DNA of 55,891 bases. It comes from Alphaproteobacteria bacterium (GTDB lineage Bacteria > Pseudomonadota > Alphaproteobacteria > UBA8366 > GCA-2717185). This document shows positions 68 through 10,236 of the stretch, piece by piece (position 1 is the first letter of the stretch; each line of letters starts with the position of its first letter). A program made the translations under genes and the position numbers. The notes beneath the pieces are model-generated. The model ran no database searches and was not told the origin of the DNA. It worked only from the letters and a program-made list of their open reading frames with translations. Location of the stretch: positions 1 to 55,891 of the forward strand of contig JBBDQU010000013.1 of NCBI GenBank assembly GCA_040905865.1, in the 5' to 3' direction.

Positions 68-853
68 CTAATGAGTGATGTACCCGCCGTCGATCACGAT
101 ATCGGTGCCCTGCAAATAGGTCGCGTCGGTCGCGGCCATGAAATAGGCCAGTTCGGCGATCTCGGTCGCTTCGCCCAGCCGGCCGGCGCGGACATACTGC
201 TTGCGTCCGGCTTCGTAATTCGGATCGGCGGCGATGCGGTCCAGGATCGGCTGGGTGCGGATCGGGCCGGGGCTGATCGCGTTGACGATGATGCCTTCCG
301 GGCCCAGTTCAAAGGCCATCGATTTGGTCAGGTGGATCAGCGCCGCCTTGGTCAGTCCATAGACGGCGCGCTTGTCGGCGGCGACATGCCCCATCTGGCT
401 GGCGATATGGATGATACGGCCACCGCCCTGTTTGCGCATTGCCGGTAATACCGCCTGGCTGGCGAAGAATGCGGCGGTCAGGTTGACGGAGACAATGCGG
501 TCGAATTCCGCGCGGGAAAACGTGCCGAAATCCTTGTTGTCGCGGATGCCCGCGTTGTTCACCAGCACGTCGATCCTGCCGAAGGCGTCCAGCGCCGCGG
601 CGGTCATGGCTTCGGGCTGGTCCGGCTGGCCGAGGTCAAACTGCCCGTATGCCACGCTCGCCCCCGCCTGCGCCAGTTCCCGGCATTCCGTCGCAGCCGC
701 CTGCAACTGTTCCGGCGTGCCTTCGGCAACGAGGAAAAGCGATGCCCCCTCCGCTGCGAAGCGCCGGGCGATGGCGAGTCCGATGCCTTTCGGCGTCGAC
801 GCGCCGGTAATGACCGCAACCTTGCCCCTTAGCCCGTCCTTCAGCCCGCTCAT
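68..853 (-). CDS. SDR family NAD(P)-dependent oxidoreductase
   Basis: A 261-residue classical short-chain dehydrogenase/reductase, probably cytosolic. It should reduce a ketone or oxidise an alcohol with NAD(P)H; the substrate cannot be read from the sequence. The nucleotide-binding glycine motif TGASTPKGIG lies near residues 16-25, the NNAG motif at 99-102, and the catalytic Ser152, Tyr165 and Lys169 (YGLTK) are all present. The C-terminus ends in the usual GTDIVIDGGY stretch. The length is normal for FabG-like SDRs. It is divergent from the dioxygenase unit that begins near 992 and stands alone on the minus strand at the window edge. A FabG role is unlikely because no fatty-acid synthesis genes are nearby. 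Confidence 0.9.
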   Translation of the reverse strand: MSGLKDGLRGKVAVITGASTPKGIGLAIARRFAAEGASLFLVAEGTPEQLQAAATECRELAQAGASVAYGQFDLGQPDQPEAMTAAALDAFGRIDVLVNNAGIRDNKDFGTFSRAEFDRIVSVNLTAAFFASQAVLPAMRKQGGGRIIHIASQMGHVAADKRAVYGLTKAALIHLTKSMAFELGPEGIIVNAISPGPIRTQPILDRIAADPNYEAGRKQYVRAGRLGEATEIAELAYFMAATDATYLQGTDIVIDGGYITH

Positions 854-991: not shown

Positions 992-1990
992 ATGCCGGAT
1001 ACCGGATCGAGAAAACCGATTGGCGGCGCCGCGACATGGCGCGGATCTGACCTCGCAGCATCGACGCACTGGATTCATCCGCTGTCGCCTTCGGCCATCG
1101 CGGAAATCGATGCGGCGCTGCCCGGTGCGAGGGGCCGTCCGTGGGAGACGCTGACCGCCGCCGATTTTCCACTGCCGGAGCTTGGTGCGGAACTGCGGGA
1201 TATCGCGGACGAGCTGGAGGACGGCTGCGGCGTGATGAAGCTGACGGGGCTGCCGGTGGATCGCTATTCGGAAGCGGAACTGCGCGCGCTGTATTTCGCC
1301 ATCGGATCGCATCTCGGCACGCCGGTGCCGCAGAATGGCGGTCGCGGCCTGATGCGCGACATACGCGACAACAGCCGTAACGGCGGCAAACGCGTCGATT
1401 CGGCGGAAGGATTGCCCTGGCATAACGACCGGGCCGATGTGGTGGCGCTGCTCTGTGTCCGGCAGGCGCATAACGGGGGAATCAGCCGCATCGTCAGCGC
1501 GACGGCGATCCACGACACGATGCTCGACCGCCGCCCGGACCTGGTCGATACGCTGTTCGAGGATTTCCAGCGTTACTCCCCGGGCGACGAGGTCGGCGCG
1601 GTGACGGGCAGCTATCCGCTGTCTGTATTCGGGATGCGGGACGGTTATTTCACCAGCCATTATTCGCGGACCTATATCGAGCAGGCGCAGACCCTGCCGG
1701 GGGTGCCGCCGCTGACCGACCGGCAGCGGGAAGCGCTCGACATGCTGATCGATGTCGCCGAGGAACTCTGCTTCGAAATGCCGCTGGCGCCAGGCGATAT
1801 CCAGTTCCTCAACAACCATATCGTCTATCACGGCCGGACCCCGTTTACCGATGATGCGGGATCGGGCGAGGAAAGGTTGTTGTATCGGCTGTGGCTGTCG
1901 ATGCCGAACAGCCGCCCGCTGCCGCAAAGCCATGCGGTGCTCTGGGGCAATGTCGATGCCGGCGGATTGCGCGGCGGCGTTCAGACCTGA
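992..1990 (+). CDS. TauD/TfdA-family Fe(II)/2-oxoglutarate dioxygenase
   Basis: A 332-residue member of the TauD/TfdA oxygenase family, which hydroxylates substrates using Fe(II), O2 and usually 2-oxoglutarate. The metal-binding HxD is His144-Asn-Asp146 (PWHNDRAD) and the distal His280 lies in VYHGRTPF, followed by an Arg-rich stretch (LLYRLWLSMP) where the 2-oxoglutarate-binding Arg sits. The frame is open from 920, but the ATG at 992 is preferred because the family-like sequence begins only after it. It is followed after 21 nt by two alpha/beta-hydrolase-fold genes on the same strand, so the three are probably co-transcribed. The substrate is unknown. Many such proteins are annotated only as TauD family, and taurine use is not implied. 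Confidence 0.85.
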   Translation: MPDTGSRKPIGGAATWRGSDLAASTHWIHPLSPSAIAEIDAALPGARGRPWETLTAADFPLPELGAELRDIADELEDGCGVMKLTGLPVDRYSEAELRALYFAIGSHLGTPVPQNGGRGLMRDIRDNSRNGGKRVDSAEGLPWHNDRADVVALLCVRQAHNGGISRIVSATAIHDTMLDRRPDLVDTLFEDFQRYSPGDEVGAVTGSYPLSVFGMRDGYFTSHYSRTYIEQAQTLPGVPPLTDRQREALDMLIDVAEELCFEMPLAPGDIQFLNNHIVYHGRTPFTDDAGSGEERLLYRLWLSMPNSRPLPQSHAVLWGNVDAGGLRGGVQT

Positions 1991-2011: not shown

Positions 2012-2797
2012 ATGCAATGGGTGGAAGCGAATGGCGCGAGCCTGCGCTGTGAGGTCAGCGGCGCCGGGAAGGAAACGGTAGTGCTGATCCACGAACTGGG
2101 CGGGTCGCTCGAAAGCTGGGACGTGACCCTGCCGGCGTTCCAGGACCGGTTCCGGGTGCTGCGCTATGACCAGCGCGGGTTTGGCATGTCGGAAAAAACC
2201 CGGGGATCGCTTTCCATCAACACCCTGAACGCGGACCTTGTCGCGCTGCTCGATGCGCTGGGGATCGACGGACCCTGCCATGTTGTCGGCATCGCGCTTG
2301 GCGGTGGCATCGGCTTGGGTTACGCCATTGCACATCCGGAACGTGTCCGCCGCCTGGCGGTAACCAGTCCAGCCATTGGTCGTCCAACGGCGGAACTGCG
2401 GGAACGGCTGCTATCCCGCGCGGAACTGGTGGAAAAGGAAGGCATGCGCGCCGTCGTGGATGTCAGTCTTAACCGCTCTTTCCCGGAAGATATCCGCCGC
2501 GCCGTCGTCCGATTTCCGGCCTACTGGCAGCGCTGGCTGACCAACGATCCAAATGGCTTCGCTGCAATCAACCGGATGCTGGCGGAAATGAATTTACAGC
2601 CTGACCTGCACCGTATTGCCTGTCCCACGCTGGTGATTGGCGGCGCGAAAGACTCGATCCTGCCGCCATCGGTCATCGAACCGGTTGCGGCGGCGATACC
2701 GGGTGCGGTCTATCAGGAACGGGATACCGGGCATTTCATGCATGTCCAGACGCCGGAACTGTTCCTCGATACCGTCCTGCCGTTCCTGAGTGCCTGA
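2012..2797 (+). CDS. alpha/beta-hydrolase-fold protein with Ala at the nucleophile position
   Basis: A 261-residue protein with the alpha/beta-hydrolase fold, closest in style to 3-oxoadipate enol-lactonase/PcaD-type enzymes. The oxyanion region IHELGG (residues 26-31), the Asp214 region (GGAKDSILPP) and His241 (DTGHF) are in place. The nucleophile elbow reads GIALGG (93-98), so the expected Ser, Cys or Asp is Ala95 (codon GCG at 2294-2296). The protein therefore lacks the normal covalent nucleophile although Asp and His remain. It sits 21 nt after the dioxygenase and its stop is 2 nt before the next hydrolase-fold gene, suggesting translational coupling. It may be a non-hydrolytic enzyme (lyase or cofactor-free oxygenase type) or a binding protein; the sequence does not decide. 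Confidence 0.85.
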   Translation: MQWVEANGASLRCEVSGAGKETVVLIHELGGSLESWDVTLPAFQDRFRVLRYDQRGFGMSEKTRGSLSINTLNADLVALLDALGIDGPCHVVGIALGGGIGLGYAIAHPERVRRLAVTSPAIGRPTAELRERLLSRAELVEKEGMRAVVDVSLNRSFPEDIRRAVVRFPAYWQRWLTNDPNGFAAINRMLAEMNLQPDLHRIACPTLVIGGAKDSILPPSVIEPVAAAIPGAVYQERDTGHFMHVQTPELFLDTVLPFLSA

Positions 2798-2799
2798 TC

Positions 2800-3633
2800 A
2801 TGGCGGATATCCCGGATTTCACGCCGGCGCCAATGCCGCCGCCGATACCTGTTACGGAAGGATTCGTCGACGCCCAAGGGGCGAAGCTCTGGTACTGGGA
2901 CACGGGCGGCGACGGGGCTCCCGTCGTGCTGGGCCACTCAAGCACCGGCAGCGGGCTTGTCTGGGGTTATCAGCAGCCGGTGCTTGCCGCCGCCGGATAC
3001 CGGGTGATCGGCTATTCGCGGCGCGGCCATTACGGATCGGAATCGGGCCCCTTGAGGGACCGGGGAACGGGGGCGGGCGACCTGAAGACGCTGGCCGATC
3101 AACTGGAACTCGACCGGTTTCATCTGCTCGGCACCGCAATGGGGGGCATTGTCGCCACTGATTTCGCGCAGGCCTGGCCGGAACGGCTGCGCAGCCTCCT
3201 ATTGGCCTGCACGCTGGTCGGCGTGACGGACAGTGATTACGAGGCGATGTCGAAAGGGCTGCGGCCCGACGGCTTCGACCGGCTGCCGCCGGAATTCCGC
3301 GAACTGGGGCCTTCCTACCGGGCGGCCAATCCGGAAGGTGTCCGGGGCTGGCTAGATCTGGAGCACAAGGCGCTTCATGGGGCGCCGGTGAGCCGGCAGC
3401 CCACAGCGACGAAGATTACCTGGCGCACGCTGGAAAATCTGCCGATGCCCGTTCTGATGCTGACCGGCGATGCGGATCTGTATACGCCGCCGGCGGTTCT
3501 CGGAATGCTGGCTGAACGCATTCCGAGGCAGGAAACCGTGATCATTCCCGGCGCCGGGCATTCGGCCTATTGGGAACAGCCGGCGGCCTTCAACGGCGCC
3601 ATGCTCGGCTTCCTGTCACGGGTGGAGAATTGA
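2800..3633 (+). CDS. second alpha/beta-hydrolase-fold protein with Ala at the nucleophile position
   Basis: A 277-residue alpha/beta-hydrolase-fold protein beginning 2 nt after the stop of the preceding one. An N-terminal Pro-rich stretch (residues 8-18) precedes the core. The oxyanion region is VLGHSSTG (43-50). The elbow reads GTAMGG (111-116), so the nucleophile position is Ala113 (codon GCA at 3136-3138). The catalytic acid candidate Asp226 (GDADLYTPP) and His254 (GAGHS) are kept. The two tandem proteins are only distantly similar, yet both have the same replacement, which argues against a random inactivating mutation. It ends the dioxygenase unit and converges on the minus-strand Rap1a-like gene 8 nt away. 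Confidence 0.85.
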   Translation: MADIPDFTPAPMPPPIPVTEGFVDAQGAKLWYWDTGGDGAPVVLGHSSTGSGLVWGYQQPVLAAAGYRVIGYSRRGHYGSESGPLRDRGTGAGDLKTLADQLELDRFHLLGTAMGGIVATDFAQAWPERLRSLLLACTLVGVTDSDYEAMSKGLRPDGFDRLPPEFRELGPSYRAANPEGVRGWLDLEHKALHGAPVSRQPTATKITWRTLENLPMPVLMLTGDADLYTPPAVLGMLAERIPRQETVIIPGAGHSAYWEQPAAFNGAMLGFLSRVEN

Positions 3634-7401: not shown

Positions 7402-8634
7402 ATGGTCAGGACATGTCTGTACGGATTTGTTACTGCGACATTTTTCATGCTTTCCGGCGGTCACGCGATGGCGGAGAAAACGCTGCTTGGATCGGCAGCG
7501 CTGGAGGCCTTGTTCCAGGGCGGGCTGGTGTTTTCCATTGCCGGCCCCAAGGGAGATGTGACGTTTACATTTTCCGACGGGTTGCAATGGCGTGCCGAAA
7601 CGCAAGGCGGACACAGTGCCGGAGGCCGATGGAAGATCAGCGAAAACGCTATCTGCCGGAACGAAGCGCGCCATAGCGCTGGTTGGGAAGGGCTGGAACG
7701 GAAAAAGACATGTTTTACAATCTTCCAGGAAGGCAATGCGCTGTTTCTCGGCAGCCGGGCGATCCCGATGAAGTTGCGGGACCCGGACGTTGTCTCTCGT
7801 CTTGATGTGGCGCCCGAGACCGCCGCATCCGGCTCCAGTCCGGAGTCGGAGCGCGCCAGCCTCGTCCGCCACCCTGACACGCTGGCGGGGGGCAGGGCAT
7901 CGCCAGTACCGAAAAGCGCAAATATCAGCTGGGGCCGCTATCACGCGTTGGTCATTGGCATCAATGACTACAAGGCGCTTCCGAAACTCAAGACGGCGCT
8001 GACGGATGCCAGGGCGGTGGCGAAGGTTCTGCGGGAGGACTATGGCTACACCGTGCGGCTGATGGAAAATCCGGAGCGGGATGATATTATCGACGAATTC
8101 GACCGGCTCCGCGATACGCTCACGGAGGATGACAACCTGCTGATCTATTATGGGGGGCATGGCTGGCTGGACCGGCAGTCCGGCCGGGGATACTGGTTGC
8201 CCGCCGACGCGGAAGAAGACCGGCGATCACGATGGCTTTCCAATGCCAGCGTGACGGATACCCTGCAGGCGCTGCTGGCGAAGCATGTCATGGTCGTCGT
8301 AGATAGTTGCTTTTCCGGAACACTGACCCGCTCGATTGCCGTACCGGAACAGAATTCGTCCTACCTGGCCCGGATGATCGAAAAACGCACCCGGGTCGTA
8401 CTGTCATCGGGGGGGCTGGAACCTGTGGTGGATGCGGGCGGCGGTAACCATTCGGTCTTCGCCGCACAATTCCTGAAAGCGTTGCGGGACAATGGCGATG
8501 TGCTTGACGGGACCCAACTGTTCGAGCATGTCCGGCGTTCCGTCATGCTGAACGCGCAACAGACGCCGCAATATTCGGATATCCGGTTTGCCGGTCATGA
8601 AGGGGGCGATTTTATGTTCGTCCGCAATCGATAG
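7402..8634 (+). CDS. exported caspase-like (peptidase C14) protein
   Basis: A 410-residue protein. An N-terminal signal peptide (hydrophobic TCLYGFVTATFFML, then GGHAMAE) predicts export to the periplasm. Residues ~25-155 form a domain I do not recognise. A caspase/metacaspase domain begins near residue 178 (ALVIGINDY). The catalytic dyad is visible: His253 in YYGGHGW (codon at 8158) and Cys303 in VVDSCFSG (codon at 8308). Clan CD enzymes of this type usually cleave after Arg or Lys. The frame is open from 7258, but the ATG at 7402 is chosen because the signal peptide begins there behind a GGTGAG site. It stands between a dienelactone hydrolase and an acyl-CoA synthetase with no obvious partner. 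Confidence 0.88.
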   Translation: MVRTCLYGFVTATFFMLSGGHAMAEKTLLGSAALEALFQGGLVFSIAGPKGDVTFTFSDGLQWRAETQGGHSAGGRWKISENAICRNEARHSAGWEGLERKKTCFTIFQEGNALFLGSRAIPMKLRDPDVVSRLDVAPETAASGSSPESERASLVRHPDTLAGGRASPVPKSANISWGRYHALVIGINDYKALPKLKTALTDARAVAKVLREDYGYTVRLMENPERDDIIDEFDRLRDTLTEDDNLLIYYGGHGWLDRQSGRGYWLPADAEEDRRSRWLSNASVTDTLQALLAKHVMVVVDSCFSGTLTRSIAVPEQNSSYLARMIEKRTRVVLSSGGLEPVVDAGGGNHSVFAAQFLKALRDNGDVLDGTQLFEHVRRSVMLNAQQTPQYSDIRFAGHEGGDFMFVRNR

Positions 8635-8658: not shown

Positions 8659-10236
8659 ATGGAAAAACCTGCCAGCCGAACCGCGCCGGCCCTGCTGTCG
8701 GAAATGGCGGCCCGCTATCCGGACCGGGAATTCATCGTCGACGGCGATATCCGGCTGAGCTACGCCGCCTTCGCGGGTGCCGTCAGGCGCCATTCGAAAG
8801 GGCTGTACGCCTTGGGCATGCGGCGCGGCGGCCGCATGGCGATCCTGATGGACAACCGCCATGAATGGCTGGTCGCCTATTTCGCCGCGATGTCGCTGGG
8901 TGTCGAAGCCGTCGCCCTGAACACCTGGGCCACGCCGTCGGAACTGGCCTACCAGATGCGCGACGCCGACGTCGAACTGCTGGTCGCGGAGGACCGCCTG
9001 CGGTACAAGGCGCTGGACGATGTGCTGGCGGGGATACGGGCGGCGGATGGCGAAATCGCGTGCCTCGGCGGGATCGTCACGGTGGACGGTGCCGTTGCGG
9101 AAAACCGTATTCCCTTCGCGTCGCTGCCGGATATGGGGAAGACGGTCACGGATGGCGACCTGGCGGCGAACACGGCGTCAGCCGACGATATCGCCTGCAT
9201 CCTTTATACTTCGGGCTCGACTTCGATACCCAAGGGTGTGCCTCTGCTGCATCGCGGACTGATCGACAATATGTGGTCGATCGGCGAGCGCATGCATCTT
9301 TCGCCGGAGGACCGTCTGTGGCTGGCGGTTTCCATGTTCTGGTCGTTCTCCTGCGTCAACGCCCTGTTCACGGTGATGACCCATGGCGGCACGGTCGTGT
9401 TGCAGCATCACTTCGATGCGGGCGACGCGCTGCGCCTGATCGAGCAGGAGCGCTGCACGGTATTCTACGGGTTGCCGAACATGGCGCTGGCGATGACGGC
9501 GCATCCGGACCGGGCGTCGCGCAACCTCGGCTCCCTGCGGACGGGCGCCACCATCGGTACGCCGGAGCAGATCCAGCGGATCGTCGATCTGGGCGTGTAT
9601 GAAATCTGCAATGTTTACGGGCTGACCGAGGCCTATGGCAATTCGGCGGTCATCGATTGCCGGGATCCGCTGGAGCGTCGCCTGCGCTGTTCGGGCAGGG
9701 CGCTGGCAGGGCAGGAAATCCGGATCGTCGACCCGGAAACCGGGGCGGTCCTGCCGGCGGGCGCGCGCGGCGAAATCATGATCCGGGGCAATGTGACGCC
9801 GGGCTACCTGAACGATCCGGTACGGACGTCGGAGGTTTTCGATGCGGAAGGCTGGCTGCACAGCGGCGACCTGGGCGTTCTGGACGACGACGGATATCTG
9901 ACCTTTCACGGGCGGCTGAAGGAACTGGTGAAGACCGGCGGGATCAACGTTGCGCCGGCGGAAGTGGAAAAGGTGCTGGTCCGCTATCAGGGCATCGACC
10001 AGGCCTGGGTCACCGGTATTCCCGACATGCGACTCGACGAGGCGGTGGCGGCGGTCATAGTGCCGGCTAAGGGCGCGATTCTGGAACCCGAGGCGCTGAT
10101 CGCCTTCTGCCGCGAGTCGCTTGCCGCCTACAAGGTGCCGCGGCACTACCGCTTCGTGGCGGCGGGGGACCTGCCGCTGACCTCGACCGGCAAGCTGCAG
10201 AAAAACCGGCTGGCGGATTTTTTTCGGGACGGTTGA
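8659..10236 (+). CDS. AMP-dependent acyl-CoA synthetase/ligase
   Basis: A 525-residue ANL-superfamily adenylating enzyme, expected to activate a carboxylic acid to its CoA thioester through an acyl-AMP. The phosphate-binding loop ILYTSGSTSIPKG lies near residues 181-193, GLTEAYG in the core, the hinge region HSGDLGVLDDDGYLTFHGR, and the C-terminal catalytic Lys in LTSTGKLQKNRL. No carrier-protein domain follows, so a CoA ligase is more likely than a peptide-synthetase module. It converges on the enoyl-CoA hydratase gene with only 3 nt between stops. The acid substrate cannot be determined; the family spans short-chain, medium-chain and aromatic acids. Confidence 0.9.
   Translation: MEKPASRTAPALLSEMAARYPDREFIVDGDIRLSYAAFAGAVRRHSKGLYALGMRRGGRMAILMDNRHEWLVAYFAAMSLGVEAVALNTWATPSELAYQMRDADVELLVAEDRLRYKALDDVLAGIRAADGEIACLGGIVTVDGAVAENRIPFASLPDMGKTVTDGDLAANTASADDIACILYTSGSTSIPKGVPLLHRGLIDNMWSIGERMHLSPEDRLWLAVSMFWSFSCVNALFTVMTHGGTVVLQHHFDAGDALRLIEQERCTVFYGLPNMALAMTAHPDRASRNLGSLRTGATIGTPEQIQRIVDLGVYEICNVYGLTEAYGNSAVIDCRDPLERRLRCSGRALAGQEIRIVDPETGAVLPAGARGEIMIRGNVTPGYLNDPVRTSEVFDAEGWLHSGDLGVLDDDGYLTFHGRLKELVKTGGINVAPAEVEKVLVRYQGIDQAWVTGIPDMRLDEAVAAVIVPAKGAILEPEALIAFCRESLAAYKVPRHYRFVAAGDLPLTSTGKLQKNRLADFFRDG

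Follow-up and report, generated by a model that had tools for sequence, protein, structure and literature searches.

Two separate alpha/beta-hydrolase-fold families with alanine at the nucleophile elbow, encoded in tandem beside a TauD-type dioxygenase gene in an alphaproteobacterium

Beta-ketoadipate-type pathways pass through beta-keto acids and enol-lactones. Among the described systems closest to the two proteins reported here are the 3-oxoadipate enol-lactonase PcaD (TIGR02427; PDB 2xua), a Ser-type enzyme, and RutD (TIGR03611; PDB 3v48), which has Ala at the nucleophile elbow and keeps the Asp and His of the triad. RutD is described as a proposed aid to a decarboxylation and as dispensable when cells grow with uridine supplying the nitrogen (PMC8113886). 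The tomato protein ShMKS1, with an Ala-His-Asn triad, is described as decarboxylating 3-keto acids (PMC11644291), and a review portrays carboxy lyases of the superfamily as working with a D/E-H dyad and no serine (PMC11878206). The hydroxynitrile lyases AtHNL and HbHNL are described as using His as general base for C-C cleavage while keeping the Ser, and the Ser81Ala variant of AtHNL is given as having <2% activity (PMC3444685). The Ala-type alpha/beta-hydrolase fold is therefore already known; the two families described here lie outside the curated models tried, and no account of either was found in the search listings of an open-licence literature collection, a scope that leaves out most subscription papers.

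The window analysed, a stretch of 55,891 nucleotides whose base 1 is the contig start, encodes two adjacent alpha/beta-hydrolase-fold proteins, P1 and P2, in the following layout.

68..853, minus strand: short-chain dehydrogenase (SDR) gene, divergent from the TauD gene (Pfam adh_short_C2)
992..1990, plus strand: TauD/TfdA-family Fe(II)/2-oxoglutarate dioxygenase gene (Pfam TauD, 106.9 bits)
2012..2797, plus strand: P1, PcaD-like alpha/beta-hydrolase-fold protein, 261 aa (Ala95, Asp214, His241)
2294..2296, plus strand: Ala95 codon of P1, GCG
2800..3633, plus strand: P2, second alpha/beta-hydrolase-fold protein, 277 aa (Ala113, Asp226, His254)
3136..3138, plus strand: Ala113 codon of P2, GCA

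Since TauD, P1 and P2 share one strand, with intergenic gaps of 21 bases (TauD to P1) and 2 bases (P1 stop to P2), a common transcript is likely, with TauD as the first gene of a probable operon. TauD-P1-P2 is present in three of the four searched genomes of the window's genus; no P1 match was found in G002, a genome of this genus that is 64% complete. In two congeners TauD orthologues adjoin P1-P2, and in both the SDR is kept alongside, so that it likely belongs to the same pathway. Elsewhere in the window, an ORF at 7468-8634, spotted by eye, carries the motifs YYGGHG and DSCFSG, which we take to be metacaspase/caspase-like.

The superfamily nucleophile is Ser, Cys or Asp, and both proteins have Ala in its place: the elbow reads GIALGG in P1 (Ala95) and GTAMGG in P2 (Ala113). 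The ORFs and their GCG and GCA codons bear out the original prediction, made from this DNA alone, that both tandem genes encode Ala at the nucleophile; it was also right that the triad Asp and His are retained, as Asp214/His241 of P1 and Asp226/His254 of P2 align to the acid and base of Ser-type relatives. In our alignment, Ala occupies the elbow in all 26 P1-type and all 11 P2-type rows. P1-type rows that reach the positions have Asp (25/25) and His (25/25), and P2-type rows have His in 11/11 and Asp in 10/11, with Glu in the remaining one. The 25 full P1-type rows have 19 invariant positions, E28, A95, R136, D214 and H241 among them, and the least similar P1-type pair is 28.8% identical. Both proteins are under purifying selection between three orthologues from the window's genus, with dN of 0.029-0.117 against dS of 0.42-0.85 for P1, and 0.096-0.134 against 0.69-1.18 for P2; the TauD and SDR orthologues of three congeners likewise have dN well below dS. 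The fixed Ala, a short list of invariant sites that includes Asp and His, and dN far below dS together argue for a function that has been kept, not for decay.

The Ala is not a peculiarity of this locus. It is found in all P1 relatives with at least 45% identity recovered in the relative search, which come from Alphaproteobacteria, Burkholderiales (L031 and the Ramlibacter record L034) and Rokuibacteriota records, and in five plasmid-borne relatives, three P1-like and two P2-like. Its codons differ synonymously, with 17 GCG, 3 GCA and 6 GCC in the P1 type and 5 GCG, 5 GCC and 1 GCA in the P2 type. A sequencing error or a recent local mutation is ruled out for practical purposes by the same residue, differently encoded, in congeners and distant lineages. 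The original prediction had named, as an outcome that would count against it, Ser in most relatives with Ala seen only here; close relatives do not follow that pattern, and Ser appears among more distant ones.

Both proteins belong to the superfamily by the Abhydrolase_1 profile (99.3 bits for P1 and 72.5 bits for P2, cut-off 25.8). The best-fitting curated NCBIfam models are PcaD-type, namely PcaD for P1 and PcaDC for P2, both far below cut-off: P1 and P2 score 170.2 and 91.2 bits with TIGR02427 (PcaD; cut-off 255.85), and 93.7 and 59.9 bits with TIGR03611 (RutD; cut-off 238.5). The predicted model of P1 (pLDDT 90.6) has PcaD 2xua as its best PDB match (Z 36.3, rmsd 1.6, 253 residues). That of P2 (pLDDT 86.9) is best matched by a group of esterases (top Z 28.6, near 28 for the group); slightly below these come PcaD (26.9) and C-C hydrolases, MhpC (Z 27.0) among them. 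The match covers full-length P1, and P2 from about residue 14 onward. Such likeness between predicted and known folds is by itself no proof of function for either protein.

P1 thus has its closest profile and fold in PcaD, shares Arg136, Asp and His with it, and is found in some neighbourhoods of beta-ketoadipate type. However, all nine PcaD rows carry the catalytic Ser that P1 and P2 lack, and the oxyanion loop, N-S in PcaD, is H-E in 25 of 26 P1-type rows. RutD resembles both proteins in its elbow Ala with Asp and His kept, in serving an accessory catabolic step and in the RidA-family neighbours of some P2 relatives, but it falls in a separate clade and is at most 28.1% identical to P1 and 24.7% to P2. 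ShMKS1, known to us by description only, likewise has Ala in place of Ser and a retained His, but it is a plant MES-family protein with an Ala-His-Asn triad. The assignment of P1 as a plain PcaD or RutD is excluded by the sub-cut-off scores and by its placement in the tree.

A maximum-likelihood tree was computed from 78 rows, and an extended one from 84 rows, to which plasmids contributed the five relatives and a single Ser-type protein. PcaD was represented by 9 of 20 fetched PcaD loci, PcaD_L102 being excluded for an in-frame stop at the chosen ends; the Ala-type L023 lay outside the tree, and the P1 row L034_7680 was partial. The 26 P1-type rows form one clade (support 100/100) and the 11 P2-type rows a separate one (100/98), with Ser-type relatives outside each. 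In the 84-row tree, all five plasmid relatives (three P1-like, two P2-like) nest inside their respective Ala clades. Seven RutD and RutD-like rows make up a clade of their own (100/100), outside which P1 and P2 fall; within it, two Ala-type RutD rows constitute a third Ala group, adjoined by RutD-like rows of the Ser type. Because the three Ala groups stand separately among Ser enzymes, the replacement of Ser by Ala would, most simply, have been fixed at least three times. Judging from the tree, P1 and P2 are two old, separate Ala families that were later placed side by side. The original prediction's argument from the improbability of two losses within one operon has no bearing here, as the topology has two old losses in separate clades.

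Several other relatives deserve mention. The RutD-like proteins split into an Ala subclade (L093, L094) and a Ser subclade (L095-L097, L099, L100), so that the Ala of RutD looks derived in part of its family. Tandem or near-tandem pairs of P1-type Ala genes occur in two Burkholderiales records (L031, 2181-3783; L034, 6001-8024); they group in one clade, which points to a duplication separate from the pairing of P1 with P2. The window's own genome encodes a P1 paralogue (L002/L066, G000:C84:28124-28900) that is 59% identical, has Ala (GLALGA) and adjoins a dienelactone-hydrolase-family gene. It also encodes a PcaD-like protein with Gly at the nucleophile position (L003, G000:C4:48054-48827; HVVGLGFGG), which was counted with the Ser group in the tree, and a P2-type paralogue with Ala (L010/L071, G000:C58:13138-13941; GVAGGG). 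The last lies among PAS/HisKA, response-regulator/cyclase, HD-domain and NIPSNAP genes, with matches to SDR and carboxymuconolactone decarboxylase-like proteins about 2 to 4 kb away.

A P1 profile built from 18 sequences was run against 385 class genomes and 398 genomes from across the phylum, and matched at least 12 of the former at 1e-45 and at least 5 of the latter at 1e-50. Among the matches listed, those at 222 bits or more are all Ala (L053, L065, L054-L057, L134-L136) and those at 178 bits or less all Ser (L058-L064, L137). The P2 profile matched at least 12 of the 385 class genomes at 1e-35; here the listed matches are all Ala at 248 bits or more (L121, L133, L122, L123) and all Ser at 134.1 bits or less (L124-L132). 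Identity alone has no power to separate the two kinds, as the Ala-type L136 and the Ser-type L137 are 36.5% and 38.2% identical to P1, respectively. P1-Ala was found in at least five of the 385 class genomes (G000, G122, G246, G236, G219) and P2-Ala in at least three (G000, G122, G236); with these counts as lower bounds, since up to 6 candidates were scored in each genome, both families look rare.

Gene neighbourhoods of relatives were surveyed up to 6 kb per side where the record was long enough, with flank genes called by a simple script, or read from the ORF list for the lower-scoring L035 and L036. At 16 of 25 P1-type loci, a gene for a dienelactone hydrolase (DLH) of the L066 type, PcaI/J, a protocatechuate-dioxygenase-like protein or a carboxymuconolactone decarboxylase-family (CMD) protein lies within 6 kb, against none of 19 non-Ala control loci (15 Ser, 4 Asp) with a DLH, PcaI/J, dioxygenase or CMD match; the controls include L038, L042, L044 and L045, with short flanks in L038, L044 and L045. 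We regard this enrichment as suggestive, because the references came from the window and from P1/P2-type loci, several loci are close relatives of one another, and the controls were unmatched by organism or function. In the flanks examined, the nine P1-type loci without these matches are the window, L091, L092, L034, L035, L036, L079, L081 and L138, the flank being short on one side in L092 and L034. In two of these nine a DLH of a different type, not counted among the 16, lies nearby: about 3 kb away in the window, where it also matches the L066 type, but at a mere 26%, and about 4 kb away in L091. Over the 6 kb downstream and 2 kb upstream surveyed in the window, neither a ring-cleavage dioxygenase nor PcaI/J or CMD gave a match, and the P2-type loci L141 and L142 gave no match to any reference family.

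Individual loci show the following gene sets. PcaI- and PcaJ-family CoA transferase subunits, above NCBIfam cut-offs, lie immediately upstream of the P1 type in L069. L080 combines HpaB, both subunits of a protocatechuate 3,4-dioxygenase-like enzyme (alpha above the cut-off, beta just below), P1 type, LLM oxidoreductase and SMP-30. A P1 fusion protein in L080 was rejected: the long frame that would encode it has no Pfam domain before residue 516, and an SDR match lies on the opposite strand at 9135-9713, so that the upstream part of the frame is probably spurious. L140 holds a CMD gene and an amidohydrolase gene, the best model of the latter being 4-sulfomuconolactone hydrolase, far under cut-off. 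On plasmids, the P1-Ala gene of Pseudomonas luteola is accompanied by thiolase, metallo-beta-lactamase fold (MBL), 3-oxoacid CoA-transferase A and B, and catC, and that of Aminobacter MSH1 sits amid TctABC genes, MBL and SMP-30 lying some 2 to 5 kb off. In Massilia putida, P1-Ala is followed by a DUF4286 gene, next by a Ser-type member of the clade that includes PcaD, and then by CMD, so that there the Ala protein is not simply PcaD. Among P2-type genes, that of Agrobacterium pTi_Tun176 directly precedes an intradiol dioxygenase gene, with CMD about 3 kb upstream, and that of a Bosea plasmid lies next to RidA, together with an enolase-superfamily protein that matches, among others, the muconate cycloisomerase family at a score below cut-off. 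L083 and L084 contain GST, P2 type, RidA, PhyH and SDR, and L085 two dioxygenase subunits, GST and P2 type. PhyH is another Fe(II)/2OG oxygenase family, and matches of this type occur near the P2 relatives L083-L085, from a different genus in the same family, as TauD does near P2 in the window.

The idea that TauD generally partners the Ala types was rejected, since among the loci surveyed it accompanies P1-P2 in no more than three genomes, all of the window's genus; a TauD match and a P2-type neighbour are absent from 22 of 25 P1-type loci, many of which have genes for ring cleavage or lactone conversion close by. The original prediction had proposed that the pair may form a non-hydrolytic enzyme or use a different chemistry alongside the TauD-type dioxygenase, and had suggested a search for Ala homologs with a neighbouring TauD gene. 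Ala homologs exist, and with the Ala fixed and Asp and His kept, a chemistry that does not pass through an acyl-enzyme is the best reading; the TauD-P1-P2 unit, in contrast, was seen in the window's genus only.

A manual tally, in which SMP-30 was counted without control loci, placed another hydrolase family (DLH of either type, MBL, amidohydrolase or SMP-30) near 21 of 25 P1-type loci, the remaining four being L092, L031 (which has PepX), L081 (which has a GDSL lipase) and L139. PcaD-family genes, called by score with the elbow residue unread, are above cut-off in 9 of 17 Ala-bearing genomes searched, of which 14 have the P1 type and 3, as far as searched, the P2 type only. The window's genome has no PcaD above cut-off, its best match being the Ser-type L004 at 254.2 bits. 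As a separate hydrolase is usually near and PcaD-family genes above cut-off are present in 9 of the 17 genomes, the Ala proteins probably perform a different step in these clusters.

Our main reading, to which we assign a probability of about 0.5, is that P1 and P2 are active enzymes whose Asp and His work without an acyl-enzyme to decarboxylate or isomerise beta-keto or enol-lactone acids. An upstream oxygenase, TauD-type in the window, would make the beta-keto or enol-lactone acid substrate. The Asp-His dyad would then serve as general base and acid with no covalent acyl-enzyme, while the oxyanion hole, formed by main-chain NH groups at the elbow and after His27 (P1) or His46 (P2), would stabilise the negative charge. 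The likeliest reaction would be decarboxylation of that acid or a keto-enol or double-bond isomerisation. Ester or lactone hydrolysis would be left to a separate hydrolase, whether DLH, MBL, amidohydrolase, SMP-30 or a Ser-type PcaD relative, and in the window the SDR may finish the product. Decarboxylation is favoured over hydrolysis by analogy with ShMKS1, a plant protein compared by description only.

The main rival to decarboxylation or tautomerisation is direct attack by water, in which Asp-His would activate a water molecule against an activated enol-lactone, enamine or gem-diol-forming substrate in a RutD-like manner, making P1 and P2 serine-free hydrolases. We consider this a real but clearly weaker candidate. 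PcaD is the nearest fold match of P1, RutD offers a precedent for Ala, and the RidA-family genes adjoining P2 relatives (L083, L084, Bosea) echo RutC-RutD; Arg136 is common to all nine PcaD rows, yet it also occurs in 7/7 RutD rows and 13/25 other Ser-type rows. The other hydrolase families near 21 of 25 P1-type loci and the Ser-type PcaD-clade protein in the same gene run of Massilia speak against it, as does RutD itself, for which the account in PMC8113886 gives no demonstrated hydrolase activity. Loss of the nucleophile could also mean that P1 and P2 are pseudoenzymes, acting as non-catalytic ligand-binding, regulatory or scaffold subunits, for instance as a P1-P2 heterodimer, and Ala-type pairs do recur (in the window's genus, as P1-P1' in L031 and as P1-amidohydrolase-P1' in L034). 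However, a second Ala-type gene next to P1 was not found in 20 of 25 P1-type loci, and Asp and His are near-invariant amid divergence elsewhere, unlike in NDRG3, whose entire triad is described as substituted (PMC7022630); we therefore hold this explanation to be unlikely.

Two further possibilities keep catalysis and change its chemistry. Glu28, which follows the oxyanion-loop His and is present in all 26 P1-type rows, might be a new nucleophile or acid, and in hydroxynitrile lyases the residue after that His (Thr11/Asn12) is described as touching the substrate (PMC3444685). Three Ser-type proteins encoded in the window's genome (L008, L013, L014) share this Glu, which weakens the case, and P2-type proteins carry Ser, Pro or Ala in its place; a moved nucleophile seems to us very improbable. 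The equation of Thr11/Asn12 with the P1 position is our own reading of the motif. Still harder to credit is a cofactor-free oxygenase of the 2,4-dioxygenase kind, for which the fold and dyad chemistry would suit but whose described active site uses His251/Asp126 and contains Ser101 (PMC5178339). P1 and P2 have no such Ser and keep the acid at its usual position. Asp126 presumably lies at a position other than that usual acid site.

In current annotation such Ser-less proteins are named hydrolases, the five plasmid relatives being labelled 'alpha/beta hydrolase' or 'alpha/beta fold hydrolase'. A wider view, which we offer tentatively and think less probable than the main reading, is that serine-free, cofactor-independent lyases or isomerases arose from PcaD-like hydrolases at least twice apart from RutD, for aromatic or lactone catabolism, and added a beta-ketoadipate-like step outside the curated families tried; the window would then encode two of these enzymes, each with its own origin, acting in series after a TauD-type oxygenase. 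If Ser was lost repeatedly with Asp and His kept, this natural repetition would show the route from hydrolase to serine-free catalyst, and the two families would indicate that pathways of intradiol ring cleavage or lactone breakdown contain a step not yet described.
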